DNA of 37,954 nt from a virus, in IMG/VR virus record IMGVR_UViG_3300022187_000087, positions 1 through 37,954 of that record; one strand, written 5' to 3'. The translations under genes were made by a program, and so were the position numbers. Each line of letters opens with the position of its first letter. Position 1 is the stretch's first letter. Below are positions 23,059 through 37,954 of the stretch, one piece after another. The notes beneath the pieces are model-generated. The model ran no database searches, was not told the DNA's origin, and was given only the letters and a program-made list of their open reading frames with translations.

Positions 23059-23445
23059 ATGTGGGGTGCAGTTATAAGTGGTGTGACGAGTCTTGCTTCT
23101 TCTTATATGGAAGATAGAAAAGTAAAGTCAGAACATAAAGCAAAAGTAGAACAGGCAAGAGTCAATGCAGAAATTAATAGAATTGAAAAAGCAGCACAGT
23201 CAGACCAAGACTATGACCTTGAAGCTTTACGACAAACAAGATACAGTTGGAAAGATGAATATGTACTTGTCATCATTACCTTACCTTTCATTGGAAGCTT
23301 CATACCTAATATACAAGACCATGTTCTCAAAGGATGGGAATATATAAACAAAGCACCTGAGTGGTATCAATGGAGTTTTATGGGAGCAGTTGCTGCTTCA
23401 CTAGGTATCAGATGGGCTTTCAAGTTCTTCAGTGGTAAGAAGTGA
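23059..23445 (+). CDS. Holin-like membrane protein of the lysis cassette
   Basis: A 128-residue protein. ATG 23059 is preferred over the in-frame GTG 23047; the gene starts two bases after the lysozyme stop. Residues 1-15 are hydrophobic, 20-60 form a charged helix, 69-83 (VLVIITLPFIGSFIP) and 103-124 (YQWSFMGAVAASLGIRWAFK) are membrane segments. The order of a charged helix, SWKDE and two late hydrophobic segments resembles the GTA_holin_3TM-type family (from memory). Placement next to the endolysin supports a holin role. Its last 45 bases overlap, tail to tail, the small terminase gene on the other strand. Confidence 0.65.
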   Translation: MWGAVISGVTSLASSYMEDRKVKSEHKAKVEQARVNAEINRIEKAAQSDQDYDLEALRQTRYSWKDEYVLVIITLPFIGSFIPNIQDHVLKGWEYINKAPEWYQWSFMGAVAASLGIRWAFKFFSGKK

Positions 23446-23877
23446 TTCGTCTTCTTCTTCCTCTTCCATATCTTCAGGAAAAGCTTTTGACATTAATTCA
23501 AGCACCTTGTCTATCCCAAGAATTTCCATACCCTTAACAATTTCTTCCTCTAAGGAATCAGAAGTTATCTCATCTGCATCTATATTATTACCTCTAATTC
23601 TAGAGAGCAACTCTAATGCTTTTAATGCAGAAGTTGTTTGTCCTTGGGTACGTGCAACATTGTATTGATTTTCTATTTCATCAACAACGTCAATGCTTGT
23701 TGTCATGTTAACAGTTAGTTCTTCTATTCTTTCTTGAATAGCAGTATCTTGTAGTAATCTTGAGCCTGTGTTGTGTGCAGAGACTTGACTATATCCTGCA
23801 TCCTTTGCGGCTCTTGTTGCATTCCTATGTAGGATATAGTTCTGACAAAACTTTTCATGCTTTTCTTTAAGCAGCAT
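23401..23877 (-). CDS. terS: Terminase small subunit
   Basis: A 158-residue protein; ATG 23877 is chosen over an in-frame TTG at 23883. Residues about 1-45 carry the Terminase_2-type DNA-binding signature: LKEKHEKFCQNYIL, NATRAAKDAGYS and HNTGSRLLQD. A helical oligomerisation region follows, and the C-terminus is strongly acidic (MEEEEEDESLL), as in many small terminases that contact the large subunit. It recognises the genome for packaging. It overlaps by 11 bases the end of the fusion gene upstream. No large-terminase gene lies beside it; that gene is presumably outside the window. Confidence 0.8.
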   Translation of the reverse strand: MLLKEKHEKFCQNYILHRNATRAAKDAGYSQVSAHNTGSRLLQDTAIQERIEELTVNMTTSIDVVDEIENQYNVARTQGQTTSALKALELLSRIRGNNIDADEITSDSLEEEIVKGMEILGIDKVLELMSKAFPEDMEEEEEDESLLTTEELESPSDT

Positions 23878-26149
23878 TGTCAATCATCTCGTAGTAGTAT
23901 TTTTCTTTTGCCTTCAAAGAGTTCTTCCAAACTTCAGAAACTAGTGTGTTAGTACCATGAACCTTGAGAGACATGTCCATATTCTTATCATCAAATAGTT
24001 TCTCACAGTCCTGTGCCATTGCAAGCAACTCTCCTGTAGTCCAAAAGTATTCTCCATTGGTTTCCACCTTAAAGTATTTAGGTTTACCTGAAGTTTTTTC
24101 TTTTTTCATTTCTTCTGTTACTTCAGGAACTGAGCAGTCAAAACCAAATAACTCAAAGTTTCTAAAGCCAAGTATGTGAGCAATGGATATTGTTCTCATG
24201 GCTGCACAAGTTCCACCTGATACCAATGTTTCTCCTTCTTCTATGCCTGTATCCTTAGCAATTTTAAGTTTATCTTTGACAGTCTTATCTCTTAGTGCTT
24301 CAGAGTAGGCAGACCAACCTTTAATATTTGCACCTTTTTTTATAAGGTATTTAGTAACTGAAGGGTCAGTCATAGAAGCTACAAGAAAGATGGTGTCCTT
24401 GTTTATCTTTTTAAATAAATCTTTTCTTACTACACCATGAGTACTTGTGCCTGTGATAGGTCTTGGGTCAAGTATAGAACATATAAAAGGACTGATGCCA
24501 TGTTCTAGTAATTTAGGATAGCTGTGCTTAACACAAAAGATTTTAGTGTTAGGTTCTCTAGCTTTCTTTTTTAGTAAGTTAAAGTCTGTGCTTGAACCAC
24601 CTGAAACAATAAGGGCAGTTTCATTATGTATTCTACCATGCTTCAACCAATTAAAATCTTTAATTAACTTTTTATTTTCTTTTATGTTTACAAATATTTC
24701 ATCCTTTGGTCTTGAGTCTTTAGGTGTAACCACAATAGGCATACGAGTAATTTCATCAGGTAGTTTTTCTACCTTCTTACTGTTAGCAACAAAAGCAATA
24801 TGTGTTCTACCACCACCTAGAACTTTATCATTAGAGGGAAGAACAACTTTACCATATGCTTTTATTTCTTTTAGTAATTTATTAACACCCATATTTTTTT
24901 CTAAAGGCTTCTGTCCAAACTCATCCTCAGAAAAGAAATCATCAAACACAAGTATAGGAACTTTCTTTAGATTATTATAGTCAGCCTTTACAGTTTCATA
25001 TGAATGACCACCATCTATAAAAGCAAAGTCAACATTACGAGCTAACTTATTTTTCTTTAGTGTAATCTTAGAGTCACCTTTGTAAAGCTTAAATATAAAT
25101 TCTTTATTCTTCTCTTTCATTTTTTCTTTGAATTGATTTAGTCTTGTTTCAATAAGCTCTATTGTATGATGCTTCTTACTATTCATTTCTATATCATCAG
25201 TAAGAGCAGTTGCTTCTTCAAACAAATCAAAACCAAAATATGTAAACCTGTCTGTGTATTCAAAGGCTGCAAGTGCCATTTCTATAGCTCTGCCACCATT
25301 CCATGTACCTACTTCAGTAAGTGTTTTAGGTTTGTAGTGTCTTATAATATCTGCAAGCTGTCTATATCTAGGTAACTTTACATCCTGTGCAAGAGTATTC
25401 TTTTTGTTTTTTAGATTACCTTTGTAGTGTATAAAATATTCTGAAAGAGGTGACTGCATGAAGGCAGTAAGACCTTTACAATTTTCTGATAGATTGTTGA
25501 CTACCATACCATGTGCCTTGTAGATATTAAGAAGTCTTTCAAATATAAAACCATCATGCCATTCTCTGTACGAAATAGTTTCACCTATTGTATAACAACC
25601 TCTTAGGTCTGCAAGTATTGAACAGGCATCATGGTACTGTAAGTTAAAACCCATGAAGCTTGTTTCGCTGTAGTCAACATCTTTTCTTCCTAGATGTACA
25701 AGACTTGCTTTGTTAGGTAACCACTTGTCAACTGCAGATTTATCTAGTCTCTTTGTAGTAACTGTATCTGCATCAAGCCATACTAACCACTGAGGTTCTT
25801 CAGGGTTCTTATTTTCTTCCATCATCTTGAAGGCTCTGTCAGTTAGGGCATACACTTTATGACACCACTTGACTGCATCTAGTCTCCAGTTGTAAGGCAT
25901 TGTTCCACCTTCAGTACCATCATGCTTCTTCATCTTCTCACGATAGTCAGTCATTTCTTTTACATCATTAAGATGTATATATACAATGCTAGAAGAAGTA
26001 GGATGGTCAACCTTTTCAATGTCAAAATCATGGTAGTAAGCATATAGTTTAAAATGTTTTGGATTCCATTTTTCTGCCACACTTTTAAGCATTTCTTTTG
26101 CATAGGTATTATATCCTTCCTCGCTGAAAGAAGTTACGAATGTATACAT
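23867..26149 (-). CDS. Three-domain glycosyltransferase / methyltransferase / DUF115 fusion
   Basis: A 760-residue protein; ATG 26149 has a GGAAAA ribosome site and overlaps the upstream stop region, while a 45-residue longer frame lacks support. Residues 1-245 look like a GT-A glycosyltransferase, with DAD at 126-128 (WLVWLDADTV) and WHDGF at 197-201. Residues 260-455 match class I methyltransferases (Methyltransf_24 type): EVGTWNGGRAIEMA at 279-292, GFDLF at 306-310, FIDGGHSYETVKADY at 377-391, FDDF at 402-405. Residues 505-735 match DUF115/MAF_flag10 (MptE-like): ALIVSGGSS at 512-520, SILDP at 558-562, SGGTCAAM then GFRNFELFGFDCS. DUF115 proteins take part in flagellin glycosylation with nonulosonic acids. 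A glycan-building role is inferred. Confidence 0.8.
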   Translation of the reverse strand: MYTFVTSFSEEGYNTYAKEMLKSVAEKWNPKHFKLYAYYHDFDIEKVDHPTSSSIVYIHLNDVKEMTDYREKMKKHDGTEGGTMPYNWRLDAVKWCHKVYALTDRAFKMMEENKNPEEPQWLVWLDADTVTTKRLDKSAVDKWLPNKASLVHLGRKDVDYSETSFMGFNLQYHDACSILADLRGCYTIGETISYREWHDGFIFERLLNIYKAHGMVVNNLSENCKGLTAFMQSPLSEYFIHYKGNLKNKKNTLAQDVKLPRYRQLADIIRHYKPKTLTEVGTWNGGRAIEMALAAFEYTDRFTYFGFDLFEEATALTDDIEMNSKKHHTIELIETRLNQFKEKMKEKNKEFIFKLYKGDSKITLKKNKLARNVDFAFIDGGHSYETVKADYNNLKKVPILVFDDFFSEDEFGQKPLEKNMGVNKLLKEIKAYGKVVLPSNDKVLGGGRTHIAFVANSKKVEKLPDEITRMPIVVTPKDSRPKDEIFVNIKENKKLIKDFNWLKHGRIHNETALIVSGGSSTDFNLLKKKAREPNTKIFCVKHSYPKLLEHGISPFICSILDPRPITGTSTHGVVRKDLFKKINKDTIFLVASMTDPSVTKYLIKKGANIKGWSAYSEALRDKTVKDKLKIAKDTGIEEGETLVSGGTCAAMRTISIAHILGFRNFELFGFDCSVPEVTEEMKKEKTSGKPKYFKVETNGEYFWTTGELLAMAQDCEKLFDDKNMDMSLKVHGTNTLVSEVWKNSLKAKEKYYYEMIDNAA

Positions 26150-26150
26150 A

Positions 26151-26915
26151 TTAATTTTCCTTTGGTAATATTCTTGAGTTGTATGAGTTGTGTAGTGTAT
26201 CCCACTCACCTGCGTAGTGAGCATCACATAGTCTCTTTGGTTTCCAACTGTCAAACCAAGGACCACCTGTAGTAAAATGTACATTACATGGGTTTATTGA
26301 TTCATCAGTCCATCCATCTAGGAAGTTCCACTTAGGATGGATAGAACCTATCTCTTCATCTTCTAGCCAACTAAAGTTATGTAGCCATCTACCTGACTGT
26401 TCATTAACATCCTTGATTGTAAGTCTTTTGTTGGCAGGGTGTTCGCAGTTCCATAGTATAAAGCTAGACCAATTCTTTCTATTATAATTAGTCTGTATTT
26501 GATTGTCCATTTTAAAAATTTCTTTAGGCTTGTACTCATGCTTAACAACAGAGACTGCATACTCATCAAACTGTCCATACTCTTCAAAGACTTCTGTTAT
26601 GTCTGCTCTTAACAACATATCACAATCCATAAAAATAGCAAGACCTTTATGAAGATTAATAAAAGGTATTAAGAATCTTGTAAATGTAAACTCACTACTG
26701 AAAGGTCTCTTGTCTGAAGAGTCTATCTTCTGATGTTGGTCATCAAGAAAGTAAGTTCTTTTGTAGAGACCTGATAAACGTAGGGATGATTGTTCAAGGG
26801 GAATGATATCATATTTATGGGTATACTTTTCTATTGAAAATTTTAATACCTCAAAAGCAATATGTTCTTTAGGGTCATACCCTACATATATAACAGGTCT
26901 TCTACTAGTAAACAT
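26151..26915 (-). CDS. GT8-like glycosyltransferase
   Basis: A 254-residue protein; ATG 26915 is used, as the in-frame GTG 26924 lies within the previous gene. The N-terminus (VIYVGYDPKEHIAFEVLKFS) and the metal-binding DCD at 97-99 (AIFMDCDMLL) fit GT-A enzymes of the GT8-like type, with NWSSFILWNC at 148-157 and HFTTGGPWF at 213-221 as probable acceptor and metal contacts. It would transfer a sugar from a nucleotide-sugar donor. The acceptor is not known. It lies between a coiled-coil protein and the three-domain fusion, ending one base before the latter's start, so the two probably act together. Confidence 0.8.
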   Translation of the reverse strand: MFTSRRPVIYVGYDPKEHIAFEVLKFSIEKYTHKYDIIPLEQSSLRLSGLYKRTYFLDDQHQKIDSSDKRPFSSEFTFTRFLIPFINLHKGLAIFMDCDMLLRADITEVFEEYGQFDEYAVSVVKHEYKPKEIFKMDNQIQTNYNRKNWSSFILWNCEHPANKRLTIKDVNEQSGRWLHNFSWLEDEEIGSIHPKWNFLDGWTDESINPCNVHFTTGGPWFDSWKPKRLCDAHYAGEWDTLHNSYNSRILPKEN

Positions 26916-26917
26916 TT

Positions 26918-27148
26918 TTACCACTTAAAAAATTGGTCAATTAAATTAAAGTGATTAGGCATGACAGTTGTTGCTCCATACTTTTCTTTTGCAATATCTC
27001 TATACTTATTATATTTTTGAGTTGCAATTTCAGAAGCAGCTTCAAACTCTTTCCATGCAGATTTTAAGTCACCATACTTTAAGTCTTCCACTTCTTTTTG
27101 TTTAGATTTTATTTCTTCTTCAAGTTTTTTAATCTTATCGTCTGACAT
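26918..27148 (-). CDS. Small coiled-coil protein, first gene of the glycosylation operon
   Basis: A 76-residue protein with an AAAGGAG ribosome site seven bases before the ATG and about 35 bases downstream of the predicted transcription start. Residues 1-55 are heptad-like (IKKLEEEIKSKQKEVEDL, then AWKEFEAASEIATQKYNKY). The C-terminus is less helical (NHFNLIDQFFKW). No enzymatic motif. It ends two bases before the GT8-like gene and may help scaffold the enzymes or play an unrelated role; unknown. Confidence 0.65.
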   Translation of the reverse strand: MSDDKIKKLEEEIKSKQKEVEDLKYGDLKSAWKEFEAASEIATQKYNKYRDIAKEKYGATTVMPNHFNLIDQFFKW

Positions 27149-27852: not shown

Positions 27853-27964
27853 TATTTTTCTTGAATACCTTTCTTCCCTTAAAGAATACTATTGAGTTTA
27901 TGCAAGTGTTAATGGTGATTGCAATTAACAACCACCACTGCCACCAATCAAGTTCATTCCCCAT
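27833..27964 (-). CDS. 43-residue single-pass membrane protein
   Basis: This small gene fills the gap between the ribonucleotide reductase and the 208-residue gene. The ATG (27964-27962) overlaps the reductase stop as TAATG, and the stop lies 20 bases inside the next gene. The product begins MGNELDWWQW, has a membrane segment at about 11-28 (WLLIAITINTCINSIVFF) and a basic tail (KGRKVFKKNN), consistent with a cytoplasmic C-terminus. There is no clear ribosome site, so translation would rely on coupling. Function is unknown. Confidence 0.65.
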   Translation of the reverse strand: MGNELDWWQWWLLIAITINTCINSIVFFKGRKVFKKNNVNTNS

Positions 27965-29901
27965 TATGTTATGTCCACTATCTCACACGAACCTGCAACA
28001 CAAGCAAACTCTTTACTGCCTGTAGTTGTATCTTCTTTTTCGTAGTCTGATAATTTAGACCAATCAATAGACTTAGGCATTATATTTTTTAACTCCAAGT
28101 ATTCTTCTCTTTCTACATCTTGGTAAGGTGCTTGCTTATATACATGGTCATAAAAAGGAAGGAAGGAAATGCCTGATACCTCATCAAAGTTTTTATAAAC
28201 CCATGCTCCTACTTCCATCCACTCATCCTTCTTAACAGATATAGTTACAGAAGGTTTGTGTTCACACCAATGTCTCTGAAAGATTAACCAATAATCTAAT
28301 TGTTCAATAGCAGTCATTTCAGTTCTAGTTATTGCACCTTCAGGAGACTTAGTAGGAAAGCTAAACACAGTTGTGGTTTCGTGTTCAATACCTACAGAAG
28401 GTTCTGAAGGAATGCCTGCATCTTTCATAAACTGTGTGAGTGGGTCTGTGTTCCCTGCTCTTACAGTTCTTATGTAGTATTCACTATGTCTTGCATGAAT
28501 ACCTGATGCACTATCAACCAACTGACTAACTGTACCACTAGGTTTGACACAAGTAATTGCAGTTGACTGAGGTATACCTAACATCTTGGCATACTTTTTA
28601 TTTGTTTCTACTGCAACATTCTTTAGATTTTCTAGTGTATCTTTTAATGTAATGTTGCGAGGTGTAAGTAAAGGACAGTCAAGTATACCTGTAAGAGAAA
28701 CTCCTAACAGTCTTTCCTCTTCTGTATTCTGTTTCCATATCTTACGTAAATATTTAAAGTTAGTAAGTGTTGATTGAAGTGTTCCTAATATTGTTGCAAC
28801 TTCTACTTTTTGTTTTAGAGATTCTATAGTGTCACCTTCTCTACAAACAACTTCAGTTAGGTTACAGAACTGATAAGGTCTTAGAATAATTTCACTACAA
28901 GGATTGCAACCAAACTCATGGTCAGCATCTCGTCTACCATTTTCTTTGACTTTGTTTTTTGCTGCCTGTCTATTGAAGATACCTCTCTCACCTGAATTAG
29001 ATTCATATAGAGACAACCATTCTTTCATAAATGTTCCTATGTTAGGTTTATCTCTATAGGCAACAGAGTTATTGGCTTGACCTCTTTGACCATTTCTTAT
29101 TATATTTTCTTCAGGTATATCCCACCACTCTCCTGACTTACAATGTCTTATTTGGTCATCATTTAAATTAGACAAAGAGATAAGGGCAGAACGTCTTACA
29201 CCACCTACAACAACTGCCTGTCCAATCTTACACATGATATCATGGCACTCAATAGGATAAAGTCTTCTGCCTTTTGCATCTTTAAACTTATCTATAGTAA
29301 ACTTACATAGATTAAGGAAAGGTTCAGGTCCTGATGCTCTACCACCCATAGTATTTAACTTAGCTCCTGCAGGTCTTACTTCAGATACGTCTATTGTAGG
29401 TATCTGACCTACATATAACATAGCAATTAACTCTCTCAAAGCTTTTGCCCAACCTGGTCTAGAGTCAGCAACCTTTATAACTGTAGTGCTGTCTTCAAAA
29501 TGCTCATTAACAATAGGTAGTTTGTCAACATTACTTCTTTCAACAGAGAAGCCTACACCTGTACCACACATAAGAATGTACATACACTCGTCAAAGGCTC
29601 TAGGTGAATCTACAGGTATGTAACTGCAGTTGTAGCTAGTTACATTACAATTCTGAAGAGCAGGTCCTGCAGTCATCAATGCCCTCATAGAAGGCATAAC
29701 TTCTAGACCTAGTATCTTTTGTTCTAGTTTCTTTCTAAGAGAATCTGTTAAAGTTTTACTATGCAATCCCTGCATGTAGTCAAAATATCTTGAGACAGTT
29801 TCTGTCCAAGTCTCTCTTCTTTGTTCGTCTTCCTTCCATCTTGCATAGCGAGATAAAGCAATAAAGTTTTGATAGTCTGTTGGTAGTAAGTTACTTTTCA
29901 T
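27964..29901 (-). CDS. nrdJ: Class II (adenosylcobalamin-dependent) ribonucleotide reductase
   Basis: A 645-residue monomeric-type reductase that converts ribonucleotides to deoxyribonucleotides for phage DNA synthesis. Residues match Lactobacillus-type class II enzymes: first redox Cys92 (YNCSYIPVD), active-site loop Asn333-Pro-Cys335-Ser-Glu337 (NPCSEIIL), second redox Cys346 exactly 11 residues after Cys335, and the C-terminal shuttle pair Cys634/Cys639 (CVAGSC). MCGTGVGFSVE (111-121), PAGAKLNTMGGRASGPEPF and KPSGTVSQL are further family motifs. No ATP-cone is visible at the N-terminus, and no NrdB-like partner is nearby, as expected for class II. It needs cobalamin from the host. Confidence 0.95.
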   Translation of the reverse strand: MKSNLLPTDYQNFIALSRYARWKEDEQRRETWTETVSRYFDYMQGLHSKTLTDSLRKKLEQKILGLEVMPSMRALMTAGPALQNCNVTSYNCSYIPVDSPRAFDECMYILMCGTGVGFSVERSNVDKLPIVNEHFEDSTTVIKVADSRPGWAKALRELIAMLYVGQIPTIDVSEVRPAGAKLNTMGGRASGPEPFLNLCKFTIDKFKDAKGRRLYPIECHDIMCKIGQAVVVGGVRRSALISLSNLNDDQIRHCKSGEWWDIPEENIIRNGQRGQANNSVAYRDKPNIGTFMKEWLSLYESNSGERGIFNRQAAKNKVKENGRRDADHEFGCNPCSEIILRPYQFCNLTEVVCREGDTIESLKQKVEVATILGTLQSTLTNFKYLRKIWKQNTEEERLLGVSLTGILDCPLLTPRNITLKDTLENLKNVAVETNKKYAKMLGIPQSTAITCVKPSGTVSQLVDSASGIHARHSEYYIRTVRAGNTDPLTQFMKDAGIPSEPSVGIEHETTTVFSFPTKSPEGAITRTEMTAIEQLDYWLIFQRHWCEHKPSVTISVKKDEWMEVGAWVYKNFDEVSGISFLPFYDHVYKQAPYQDVEREEYLELKNIMPKSIDWSKLSDYEKEDTTTGSKEFACVAGSCEIVDIT

Positions 29902-36894: not shown

Positions 36895-37125
36895 TTACCA
36901 ATCCCTTCTATCTAAGTCAAAGGCACGTCTTAAATCCCACATGCTCTGCTCTAAGTTTCTTATGTCAGATAAATATAAGTCTTGACACTCAAACAACATC
37001 TGTAGTGCTGAACTTACATGCCTTTCAGTTTCTTTAACTGCTTTCATTTGTTCATCAGTCATACCATCAATACCTTTTTTCCTATTAATTTCAATTAATT
37101 CAGATTCACTTTTTTTATTAGTCAT
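36895..37125 (-). CDS. Small helical protein after the methyltransferase
   Basis: A 76-residue protein whose ATG overlaps the methyltransferase stop (TAATG). It is charged and helical (MTNKKSESELIEINRKKGID, MTDEQMKAVKETERHVSSAL, then EQSMWDLRRAFDLDRRDW), probably a coiled coil. No family is recognised. It is likely to be co-translated with the methyltransferase. Confidence 0.6.
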   Translation of the reverse strand: MTNKKSESELIEINRKKGIDGMTDEQMKAVKETERHVSSALQMLFECQDLYLSDIRNLEQSMWDLRRAFDLDRRDW

Positions 37126-37954
37126 TATACATACTCCTTGTTGTTATTGTTATACATTTCATTCCATCCATCTAAGTGGATACCTTTTAATATGTGTGCA
37201 ATCACATCAACTGTCCAACCATTGCCAATCATCTTGTATCTTTGTGAGTTGGATACATGATTAGTGTAGTTGTCAGGTAGTGTTTGTAATCTCTCACACT
37301 CAAGTGGTGTAAGCTTTCGCCACATGTCCTTGCTAGTTGCAACCTTTGGTTCTCTATGTCCACCTTGCATGGTGGTAAGTGTAGGTGCTTTACCTTCTTG
37401 TGCATACACTCTCTTGATTGAGTCATGCCCTTTGAGGTCAGCAGTACCTACTCTAATCAATCCATCTTTAGACATGGTAGGGTTCTCCTTGAGTACCATA
37501 GTACGTTGCTTACGTTCAATACTATTCCACCATACTGCACCATTATATCTTGCAGTAAGGCAATGAGACTTACCACCACTAGTCATCTCTTCAGTCTCAT
37601 AACCATCTTCAAGTATGTTCTGCATAGTCAAGCCTTTGCATATCATAGGTGGTATAGTTATCTGCTCATAGCTATCTCCTACACGTTTACCAAACCAATA
37701 CAATCTGTATCTGTTTTGTGCTGATACATACTTAGAGTTCAATGGTTGAGGTTGGAATCCCATGTAATCAGATATTACATCTTGAGATTTCTTAGCCATT
37801 CGTACATTCTCTAGCAGTACATACTTAGGTTTAACTATCTCAAGCATCTCCACGAAATTAAAGAACAATTTACTACGTGGGTCATCAAAGTTAAGCTGAT
37901 GTCCTGCGAATGAGAACCCTTGACAAGGTGAACCACCCATCATCAAATCAATAT
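37125..37954 (-). CDS. Cytosine-C5 DNA methyltransferase, 5' end outside the window
   Basis: The frame reaches the right edge without a start; the first visible residues are IDLMMGGSPCQGFSFAG, so motif I (SAM binding) lies outside. Motif IV with the catalytic Cys (PCQ, codon 37925-37923) is present, followed by motif VI (LLENVRMAKK), motif VIII (SAQNRYRLYW), a target-recognition region of about 100 residues and motifs IX-X (KLTPLECERLQTLPDNYT, then QRYKMIGNGWTVDVIAHIL). It transfers methyl groups to cytosine-C5. No cognate restriction gene is visible, so it is probably an orphan enzyme protecting phage DNA or marking it. The specificity cannot be read. Confidence 0.92.
   Translation of the reverse strand, partial: IDLMMGGSPCQGFSFAGHQLNFDDPRSKLFFNFVEMLEIVKPKYVLLENVRMAKKSQDVISDYMGFQPQPLNSKYVSAQNRYRLYWFGKRVGDSYEQITIPPMICKGLTMQNILEDGYETEEMTSGGKSHCLTARYNGAVWWNSIERKQRTMVLKENPTMSKDGLIRVGTADLKGHDSIKRVYAQEGKAPTLTTMQGGHREPKVATSKDMWRKLTPLECERLQTLPDNYTNHVSNSQRYKMIGNGWTVDVIAHILKGIHLDGWNEMYNNNNKEYV

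Follow-up and report, generated by a model that had tools for sequence, protein, structure and literature searches.

Among the genes of a 37,954-base virus record, IMG/VR IMGVR_UViG_3300022187_000087 (the window, by which we mean the whole stretch of DNA analyzed), one encodes a predicted protein that joins a GT-A-like glycosyltransferase domain, a class I S-adenosylmethionine (SAM) methyltransferase domain, and a C-terminal domain of the DUF115/MptE-like family PF01973 resembling the flagellin glycosyltransferase Maf. We consider this fusion to be, probably, a multi-step enzyme that builds a glycan in the cytoplasm, carried by a podovirus-like lineage with marine phages as relatives and acting on a structural protein that the phage makes in the same cell. 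Judged from alignments of its relatives, the Maf-like domain is the one that has kept its conserved motifs in all sampled lineages, and both methylation and metal-dependent GT-A activity look optional.

The frame is open on the minus strand only, the plus strand there being full of stops; the original prediction, made from the DNA letters, had called a real 760-residue frame and placed its end exactly, omitting the strand. A longer ATG start at 26284 is possible from the open reading frame (ORF) list and would give 805 amino acids; because homologues align from the ATG at 26149, right behind the stop of the upstream gene, 760 amino acids is the better start. The motifs that had been named for the three domains, DAD (residues 126–128), EVGTWNGG, FIDGGHSYETV, ALIVSGGSS, SILDP, and SGGTCAAM, are each present in the translation, and the three domain identities are likewise supported, two by Pfam and the GT-A-like domain by fold matches and motifs. 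Pfam places Methyltransf_24 (PF13578) at residues 279–397 (40.2 bits against a cut-off of 26.3, E 7e-10) and PF01973 at residues 485–675 (63.3 bits against a cut-off of 34.6, E 3e-17), with both detected in all 38 aligned members. An AlphaFold model from a 38-row alignment contained three folded regions (mean pLDDT, the predicted local distance difference test, 75; pTM, the predicted template modeling score, 0.40), and the C-domain modeled alone reached a pLDDT of 85. Searching with the whole model, Foldseek ranked Maf at the top, followed by COMT-like O-methyltransferases, GT6 enzymes, and the GT8-type GlyE. Neither the fusion nor the second glycosyltransferase encoded beside it (GT2) has a membrane segment, and the highest 19-residue Kyte-Doolittle mean in the window fusion is 1.24, which is not membrane-helix grade; this absence of a hydrophobic helix stretch fits a cytoplasmic enzyme.

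The gene is not a chance frame: relatives are encoded in 304 of 307 viral stretches found by one pattern scan and in 409 of 413 found by another. The best 80 relatives of each of these two scans were kept for reading, and the counts given here describe samples. We read the fusion at full length in 130 homologues and, after more loci were included, in 170 viral loci (138 distinct) of 209, so that the domain order proposed in the original prediction as something to seek in viral genomes is indeed found there. A separate scan with the motif GGTCAAMR gave at least 115 loci, and all 115 are family members, some only 42–58% identical to the earlier ones; 52 carry a protein already counted and 63 are new. 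Two loci were dropped for an internal stop (L100, L178), one was too short (L166), and two were too short for their site state to be called (L227, L228); L081–L085, L095, and L096 were deliberately excluded, and L086–L094 fell below threshold. The family also appears in a contig assigned to a Sneathiella sp. metagenome-assembled genome (L097, PAKP01000072.1), with a 781-residue relative at 47% identity and the gene order ribonucleotide reductase (RNR), GT2, fusion, small terminase plus extra genes; the IMG/VR contig L098, equal to it in length, encodes an identical protein. Used as queries, the L097 protein and that of L148 brought in further lineages. Two scans of bacterial genomes yielded, respectively, nothing and a single locus, which has the phage-family gene order.

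The window DNA polymerase is closest to those of Pelagibacter phages HTVC115P, HTVC104P, and HTVC103P (47%), and a longer sister contig has a large terminase closest to those of HTVC027P and HTVC023P (39–40%); the label "marine" rests on these nearest named phages. A tblastn search of the named-phage collection for the whole fusion gave two records, both matching the GT-A part only, and neither the methyltransferase and C-domains nor the L148 protein had a match among named phages. In BFVD/UniProt, however, the 714-residue A0A6J7X5Q0 of an uncultured Caudovirales phage shows 32% identity across 773 columns when aligned with the whole model, and its length and coverage suggest the same architecture under the name "Methyltransferase domain containing protein"; several other PF01973 proteins of uncultured phages are present in BFVD. 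The original prediction knew of no described system with this architecture, and our literature searches found no paper describing it, but it is apparently already deposited, uncharacterized, as A0A6J7X5Q0. The architecture thus appears not to be new to databases, and it is the natural series of decaying domains within the family that appears to be of interest.

The Maf-like domain shows no such decay. Its best fold match is Maf (5mu5; Z 19.1, 228 aligned residues), followed by archaeal HPPK (14.1), SteA (10–11.5), and sialyltransferases (about 8), and residues 505–615 give a partial match to the flagellin-modifying NCBIfam family PseD (E 1.9e-9) whose 36.7 bits do not reach the curated cut-off of 670. 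Over 225 rows, 50 of its 271 positions are at least 99% identical, compared with 43 of 479 positions, at 98%, in the rest of the protein. The search pattern behind 87 of these rows was a motif of the Maf-like domain itself, which forces seven of the 50 positions in those rows; all 50 hold in the other 138 rows, which came from patterns spread over the protein, and 33 reach 99% in the 87 motif-found rows.

The methyltransferase domain, by comparison, occurs in several states. In the window lineage its site is apparently catalytic, with all 60 distinct members sharing E279, G281, D308, D379, H382, D403, and D404, and D379, D403, and D404 are predicted, by analogy, to bind metal. The domain resembles in fold the sugar O-methyltransferases MycF (4xvz), CalS11 (3tos), NovP (2wk1), and MeT1 (6g80), at Z 14.3–15.2, and its IDGGH aligns with the same letters in MeT1 (a weak match, E 0.44); it differs in being part of a fusion and in having lost its site in one large clade. 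These sugar O-methyltransferases are metal-dependent. In a second lineage, positions 379–382 read G-G-G-N/D (once G-S-G-N) in 45 of 45 members. Across 207 loci with readable alignment, from which the neighbor counts below also come, residues 359/379/382/403/404 read D-D-H-D-D in 80 and N-G-[N/D]-D-[H/N] in 113 (one of them with the first position missing), the other 14 being fragments unreadable at these sites. D359 was rejected as part of the loss signature, since 9 rows that are intact at the other sites carry D359N (NDHDD). Five SAM-site residues (E279, G281, T282, G286, D308) are retained in 117 of 125 metal-lost rows, with six more differing only at T282, and in 102 of 114 intact rows, several of the remainder differing at G286. 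When the metal-lost clade is included, Methyltransf_24 is detected at E 0.01 in 18 of 30 rows.

In the large clade, loss of the metal site is matched by gene content. A separate methyltransferase gene lies immediately downstream of the fusion in all 94 metal-lost loci with room for it but in none of the 66 intact ones (19 metal-lost and 14 intact loci lack room, and 4 unreadable loci also carry the gene). Distinct proteins show the same split, 77 of 77 metal-lost and 0 of 55 intact, and the 63 proteins new in the GGTCAAMR sample give 20 of 20 metal-lost with room and 0 of 25 intact. Six scanned examples of this downstream gene matched Methyltransf_23, four of them above the cut-off. On our trees the metal-lost state forms one well-supported clade with intact rows in several lineages outside it, suggesting that metal loss is probably derived and, given that the metal-lost loci make up a single branch, that pairing with the stand-alone methyltransferase represents one event rather than many.

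Two further states lie outside this pattern. In L288 and L294 the domain is degenerate, including the SAM loop (GEWDSQ where others have GTWNGG), and Pfam detects no methyltransferase in the L288 protein; as L288 groups with the intact L247 (support 94, long branch), its loss looks separate. In L240 (755–2467), a 570-residue relative joins the GT-A-like domain straight to the PF01973 domain; it is 84% identical over shared columns to its nearest relative, L236, whose methyltransferase domain is intact, and the absence could be an assembly error. None of these three loci has a downstream gene of the stand-alone methyltransferase family, and eight of their neighboring ORFs, other than the terminase and a cut GT2, gave holin, thymidylate synthase, Hsp20, or glycosyltransferase-like matches or none when scanned, with no methyltransferase among them. 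We therefore rejected the idea that methylation is required throughout and that its loss is made good every time.

The N-terminal domain carries the putative GT-A metal site. Whole-model Foldseek matches included BoGT6a (4ayl/4ayj), the human blood-group transferase 4frp, and GlyE (5gvw); Foldseek gave no aligned range, and since the enzymes matched are of the GT-A type, we assigned these GT6/GT8 matches to the N-domain. The domain appears to be like these enzymes (BoGT6a 4ayl and GlyE 5gvw) in fold, in its DxD, and in a C-terminal H-x-K-G, and differs in matching no Pfam family and, in one clade, in having N-x-N, the form found in metal-independent GT6 enzymes, together with H241N. Its DxD and HxKG motifs are common to the window protein and distant relatives, four of which are included in the 32-row alignment used for HxKG; we take HxKGxxK (241–247) to resemble the third metal ligand motif of GT8. 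D126, D128, and H241 are all retained in 158 of the 207 loci and read N-N-N in 18. In 23 more D128 is lost, with H241 lost in 22 and unreadable in one, and 8 of the 207 are unreadable. These losses make up two clades on a 48-row tree, the GGTCAAMR sample adds 8 D-D-C and 2 E-L-N rows, and changes at this site were seen only in rows whose methyltransferase metal site is also lost. Thus, the original reading that all three domains act as enzymes could fit the window lineage, where they look intact, but not lineages in which the methyltransferase site or domain is gone, nor the two or more clades that lack the GT-A metal site.

Elsewhere among phages, the GT-A part has a gene of its own that lies next to methyltransferase and glycosyltransferase genes. 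In Pelagibacter phage Mosig EXVC030M, a distant GT-A relative (23%) adjoins a GT2 relative (40%) (QOI69150/QOI69149), with two annotated methyltransferase genes upstream; these are separate genes, unlike the fusion, and a tblastn search of the named-phage collection gave no match for the PF01973 part. An unannotated ORF in MW202713.1 (L082:3263–4027) is a stand-alone GT-A relative lying between a glycosyltransferase and a methyltransferase gene, near the large terminase, and by ORF reading similar runs recur in L086–L090.

The closest structural comparison is with Maf. The phage protein shares with 5mu5 the order of a methyltransferase-like Rossmann domain followed by a PF01973 domain; residues 246–753 of the whole model align with 32–512 of 5mu5 (349 residues, Z 17.7, root mean square deviation 16 Å), and the C-domain alone aligns only with 240–502. 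The phage protein differs in adding a GT-A-like domain in front, in a methyltransferase that is apparently catalytic in the window lineage, and in lacking the Maf C-terminal helical bundle, which resembles flagellin or its chaperone: the match stops at 502–512 of the 632 residues of 5mu5, and the window protein ends 85 residues past its PF01973 match. It also lacks the flagellar context of Maf, as no flagellar family was found among the scanned window proteins or in the conserved neighborhood. PMC11339370 describes the Maf N-domain as a degenerate Rossmann fold with weak methyltransferase similarity and unclear function and reports that two Maf enzymes accept CMP-Kdo (CMP, cytidine monophosphate) instead of their native donor; PMC9290775, citing Sulzenbacher 2018, likewise notes that one Maf domain resembles a methyltransferase. 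Equivalence of the phage methyltransferase domain with the Maf N-domain would rest on fold order rather than on sequence. A profile search with the methyltransferase plus PF01973 alignment matched 4 of 289 alphaproteobacterial genomes, one match being a phage contig and no other spanning both domains, and Protein Data Bank sequence searches with the window protein and three alignments returned nothing or weak matches.

Tentatively, and with rather low confidence, we propose that the phage family may record a path from a catalytic methyltransferase to the dead N-domain of Maf, in which the metal site is lost with the SAM loop kept, or the loop is lost too, as the transferase motifs persist. A metal-lost domain of this kind may still bind SAM or S-adenosylhomocysteine and gate the transferase, with methylation passed to the neighboring gene. 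As for the link drawn originally between DUF115 proteins and nonulosonic-acid transfer, it comes only by analogy with Maf, and neither NeuB (PF03102) nor a CMP-Kdo/CMP-NeuAc synthetase (PF02348) was matched in any of 12 long contigs, which may be incomplete.

Table 1. Features of the fusion gene and its conserved neighbors, in window positions
Feature	Position	Strand	Basis
Three-domain fusion gene, 760 amino acids	23867..26149	-	Translation and full-length homologues
GT-A-like glycosyltransferase domain, residues 1–250	25400..26149	-	Foldseek matches and distant stand-alone relatives
DxD motif D126-A-D128	25766..25774	-	Both D in 60/60 distinct members nearest the window protein
HxKGxxK motif, residues 241–247	25409..25429	-	H241, K243, G244 in 32/32 alignment rows
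Class I SAM methyltransferase domain, residues 253–460	24770..25393	-	Pfam PF13578 and fold Z 14.3–15.8 to O-methyltransferases
SAM-binding loop EVGTWNGG, residues 279–286	25292..25315	-	Alignment conservation
Predicted metal/base motif DGGH, residues 379–382	25004..25015	-	60/60 in window lineage
Predicted metal ligands DD, residues 403–404	24938..24943	-	Alignment conservation
DUF115/MptE-like (PF01973) Maf-like domain, residues 480–750	23900..24712	-	Pfam, NCBIfam, model and fold match
Second glycosyltransferase (GT2)	26151..26924	-	phrog_28018; homologues annotated glycosyltransferases
RNR, conserved upstream neighbor	27964..29901	-	Gene scan and conserved order
Terminase small subunit, conserved downstream neighbor	23401..23883	-	Pfam Terminase_2

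The position of the fusion is strongly conserved. In the window it is preceded on the same strand by GT2, a small ORF, a phrog_3704 gene, RNR, an endonuclease, and a Cas4-like exonuclease, and followed by the small terminase and then by convergent lysozyme and structural genes. The original prediction had placed a second glycosyltransferase beside the fusion; homologue annotation supports this, and among loci with room GT2 lies no more than 600 nt upstream in 189 of 190, the exception being a fragment in L221, with RNR upstream in 169 of 169 and the small terminase downstream in 145 of 147. A second sample, partly repeating the same contigs, has GT2 just upstream in 92 of 93. Identity among the first sample's more distant members is 66–70% for the fusion, compared with 66–76% for RNR, 49–68% for the small terminase, and 54–61% for GT2, and the fusion is mostly above the latter two and above two structural genes. 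Being about as conserved as RNR and mostly more so than these other genes, the fusion looks like a core gene.

Several local variations were also observed. A thymidylate synthase gene lies between GT2 and the fusion in L288, where the GT2 relative has a weak Glyco_transf_8 match below the cut-off, and the GT2 region of L169 (3327–5008) consists of two ORFs (286 and 195 amino acids) that are either two genes or a frameshifted copy. An Hsp20-type family occurs upstream of GT2 in 82 loci (e.g. L098:3738–4166), near the place of the window's phrog_3704 gene, and Pfam identifies the copies in L288 and L294 as HSP20. Where RNR normally lies, L148, L172, and L179 have a far more distant RNR-like gene (24% identity in L148, the other two judged by reading), which suggests RNR replacement at a fixed position. 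The small gene that separates the fusion, or its methyltransferase, from the small terminase in L288 (3093–3497), L294 (2022–2426), and L240 (2477–2881) encodes a gene-transfer-agent-type holin with three helices (PF11351). At the far end of the window, a DNA methyltransferase gene (37125–37952) runs off the end, and 140 of its bases are 83% identical to the DNA methylase gene of Pelagibacter phage HTVC309P.

Building on the observed domains, their order and conservation, the pairing with GT2, and the predicted active sites kept or lost, we infer catalysis by each domain as follows. GT2 and the N-terminal GT-A-like domain would account for one sugar transfer apiece, and O-methylation of one of these sugars, dependent on metal and SAM, would fall to the methyltransferase domain. 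The Maf-like domain would pass a sugar from a nucleotide donor on to a protein, the most likely acceptor being a structural protein that the phage produces in the same cell. In the metal-lost clade, the separate methyltransferase gene adjoins a fusion whose own site is lost. With NeuB and CMP-sugar synthetase families unmatched in the 12 long contigs, any nonulosonic-type donor probably comes from the host. Gram-negative hosts generally make CMP-Kdo, and as two Maf enzymes accept it and those families went unmatched in the contigs, a host-supplied CMP-keto sugar such as CMP-Kdo would, by analogy, be our preferred guess. The compact glycan-building machine of the original prediction is therefore supported in its domains and paired GT2, but an all-enzymatic reading fits at most part of the family.

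A number of observations weigh against this interpretation. No Pfam family matches residues 1–250, and the loss of GT-A metal ligands in at least two clades indicates that this domain, going by its residues, is not always a metal-dependent transferase. The whole-model pTM of 0.40 does not fix the relative placement of the domains, and the 16 Å deviation of the two-domain match to Maf is not that of one rigid superposition. PF01973 also includes the pyrophosphokinase HPPK, and neither a flagellin gene nor one for donor synthesis was found. The virion acceptor is guessed from where the gene lies in the genome, and the holin directly downstream in several loci means that this position could equally reflect late expression only.

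The acceptor is where the most serious alternative lies. Phage glycosyltransferase cassettes that alter host receptors are well known, and the same enzymology could instead act on the host cell surface, on lipopolysaccharide or a surface protein, changing the receptor to block further infection; GT-A and GT2 relatives in other phages also adjoin annotated pyridoxal phosphate-dependent enzyme and sulfotransferase genes. The lack of a membrane segment in the fusion or GT2 argues against this, as do its nearest fold, Maf, which reportedly acts before flagellin export (going by the title of Parker's 2014 paper), and a core-like rather than accessory gene near the small terminase. Since the protein looks soluble and its gene is core-like and near packaging genes, we give a virion protein more weight as acceptor and regard the host surface as an unlikely, though still plausible, one. 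That the cassette instead glycosylates and methylates a modified base in phage DNA seems highly improbable: it does sit in a DNA-metabolism operon behind RNR, in a window that ends in a DNA methyltransferase gene, but the C-domain fold is Maf-like, and no recognized base-hypermodification gene was named among the scanned window proteins and part of the longer sister contig.

Other alternatives concern what the domains do. A pyrophosphokinase function for the PF01973 domain, as in archaeal MptE/HPPK, would have it activate a sugar or pterin rather than transfer one. The Pfam family is named after MptE, and the domain scores Z 14.1 against M. jannaschii HPPK and 8–9 against thiamine pyrophosphokinases, but Maf is the better fold match (228 residues aligned, against 198), the partial PseD match points the same way, far below cut-off as it is, and the surrounding domains are glycan enzymes, so that we consider this reading very unlikely. 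Least probable of all, in our judgment, is that only the Maf-like domain is catalytic and the other two serve mainly as scaffolds or acceptor-binding modules throughout. The lost methyltransferase site of the large clade and of L288 and L294, the missing domain of L240, and the two clades without a GT-A metal site would fit such a role, but D126, D128, H241, D379, H382, D403, and D404 are invariant across the 60 distinct members of the window lineage, and the lineages only 42–58% identical to the earlier ones keep the same residues.

In conclusion, the gene for a probable multi-step glycan-building enzyme, which probably modifies a phage structural protein, ranks with the better-conserved ones in a phage lineage that is widely sampled and for which our search of named phages found no isolate carrying the full protein, and this conservation suggests that glycosylation is a core part of the phage life cycle rather than an optional extra. 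Within the family, the domain at the position of the Maf N-domain exists in nature in intact, metal-lost, fully degenerate, and deleted forms, and comparing these may test what the Maf N-domain does. If the proposed path of decay is true, the degenerate N-domain of Maf would stand at the end of the path on which the phage domain lies.

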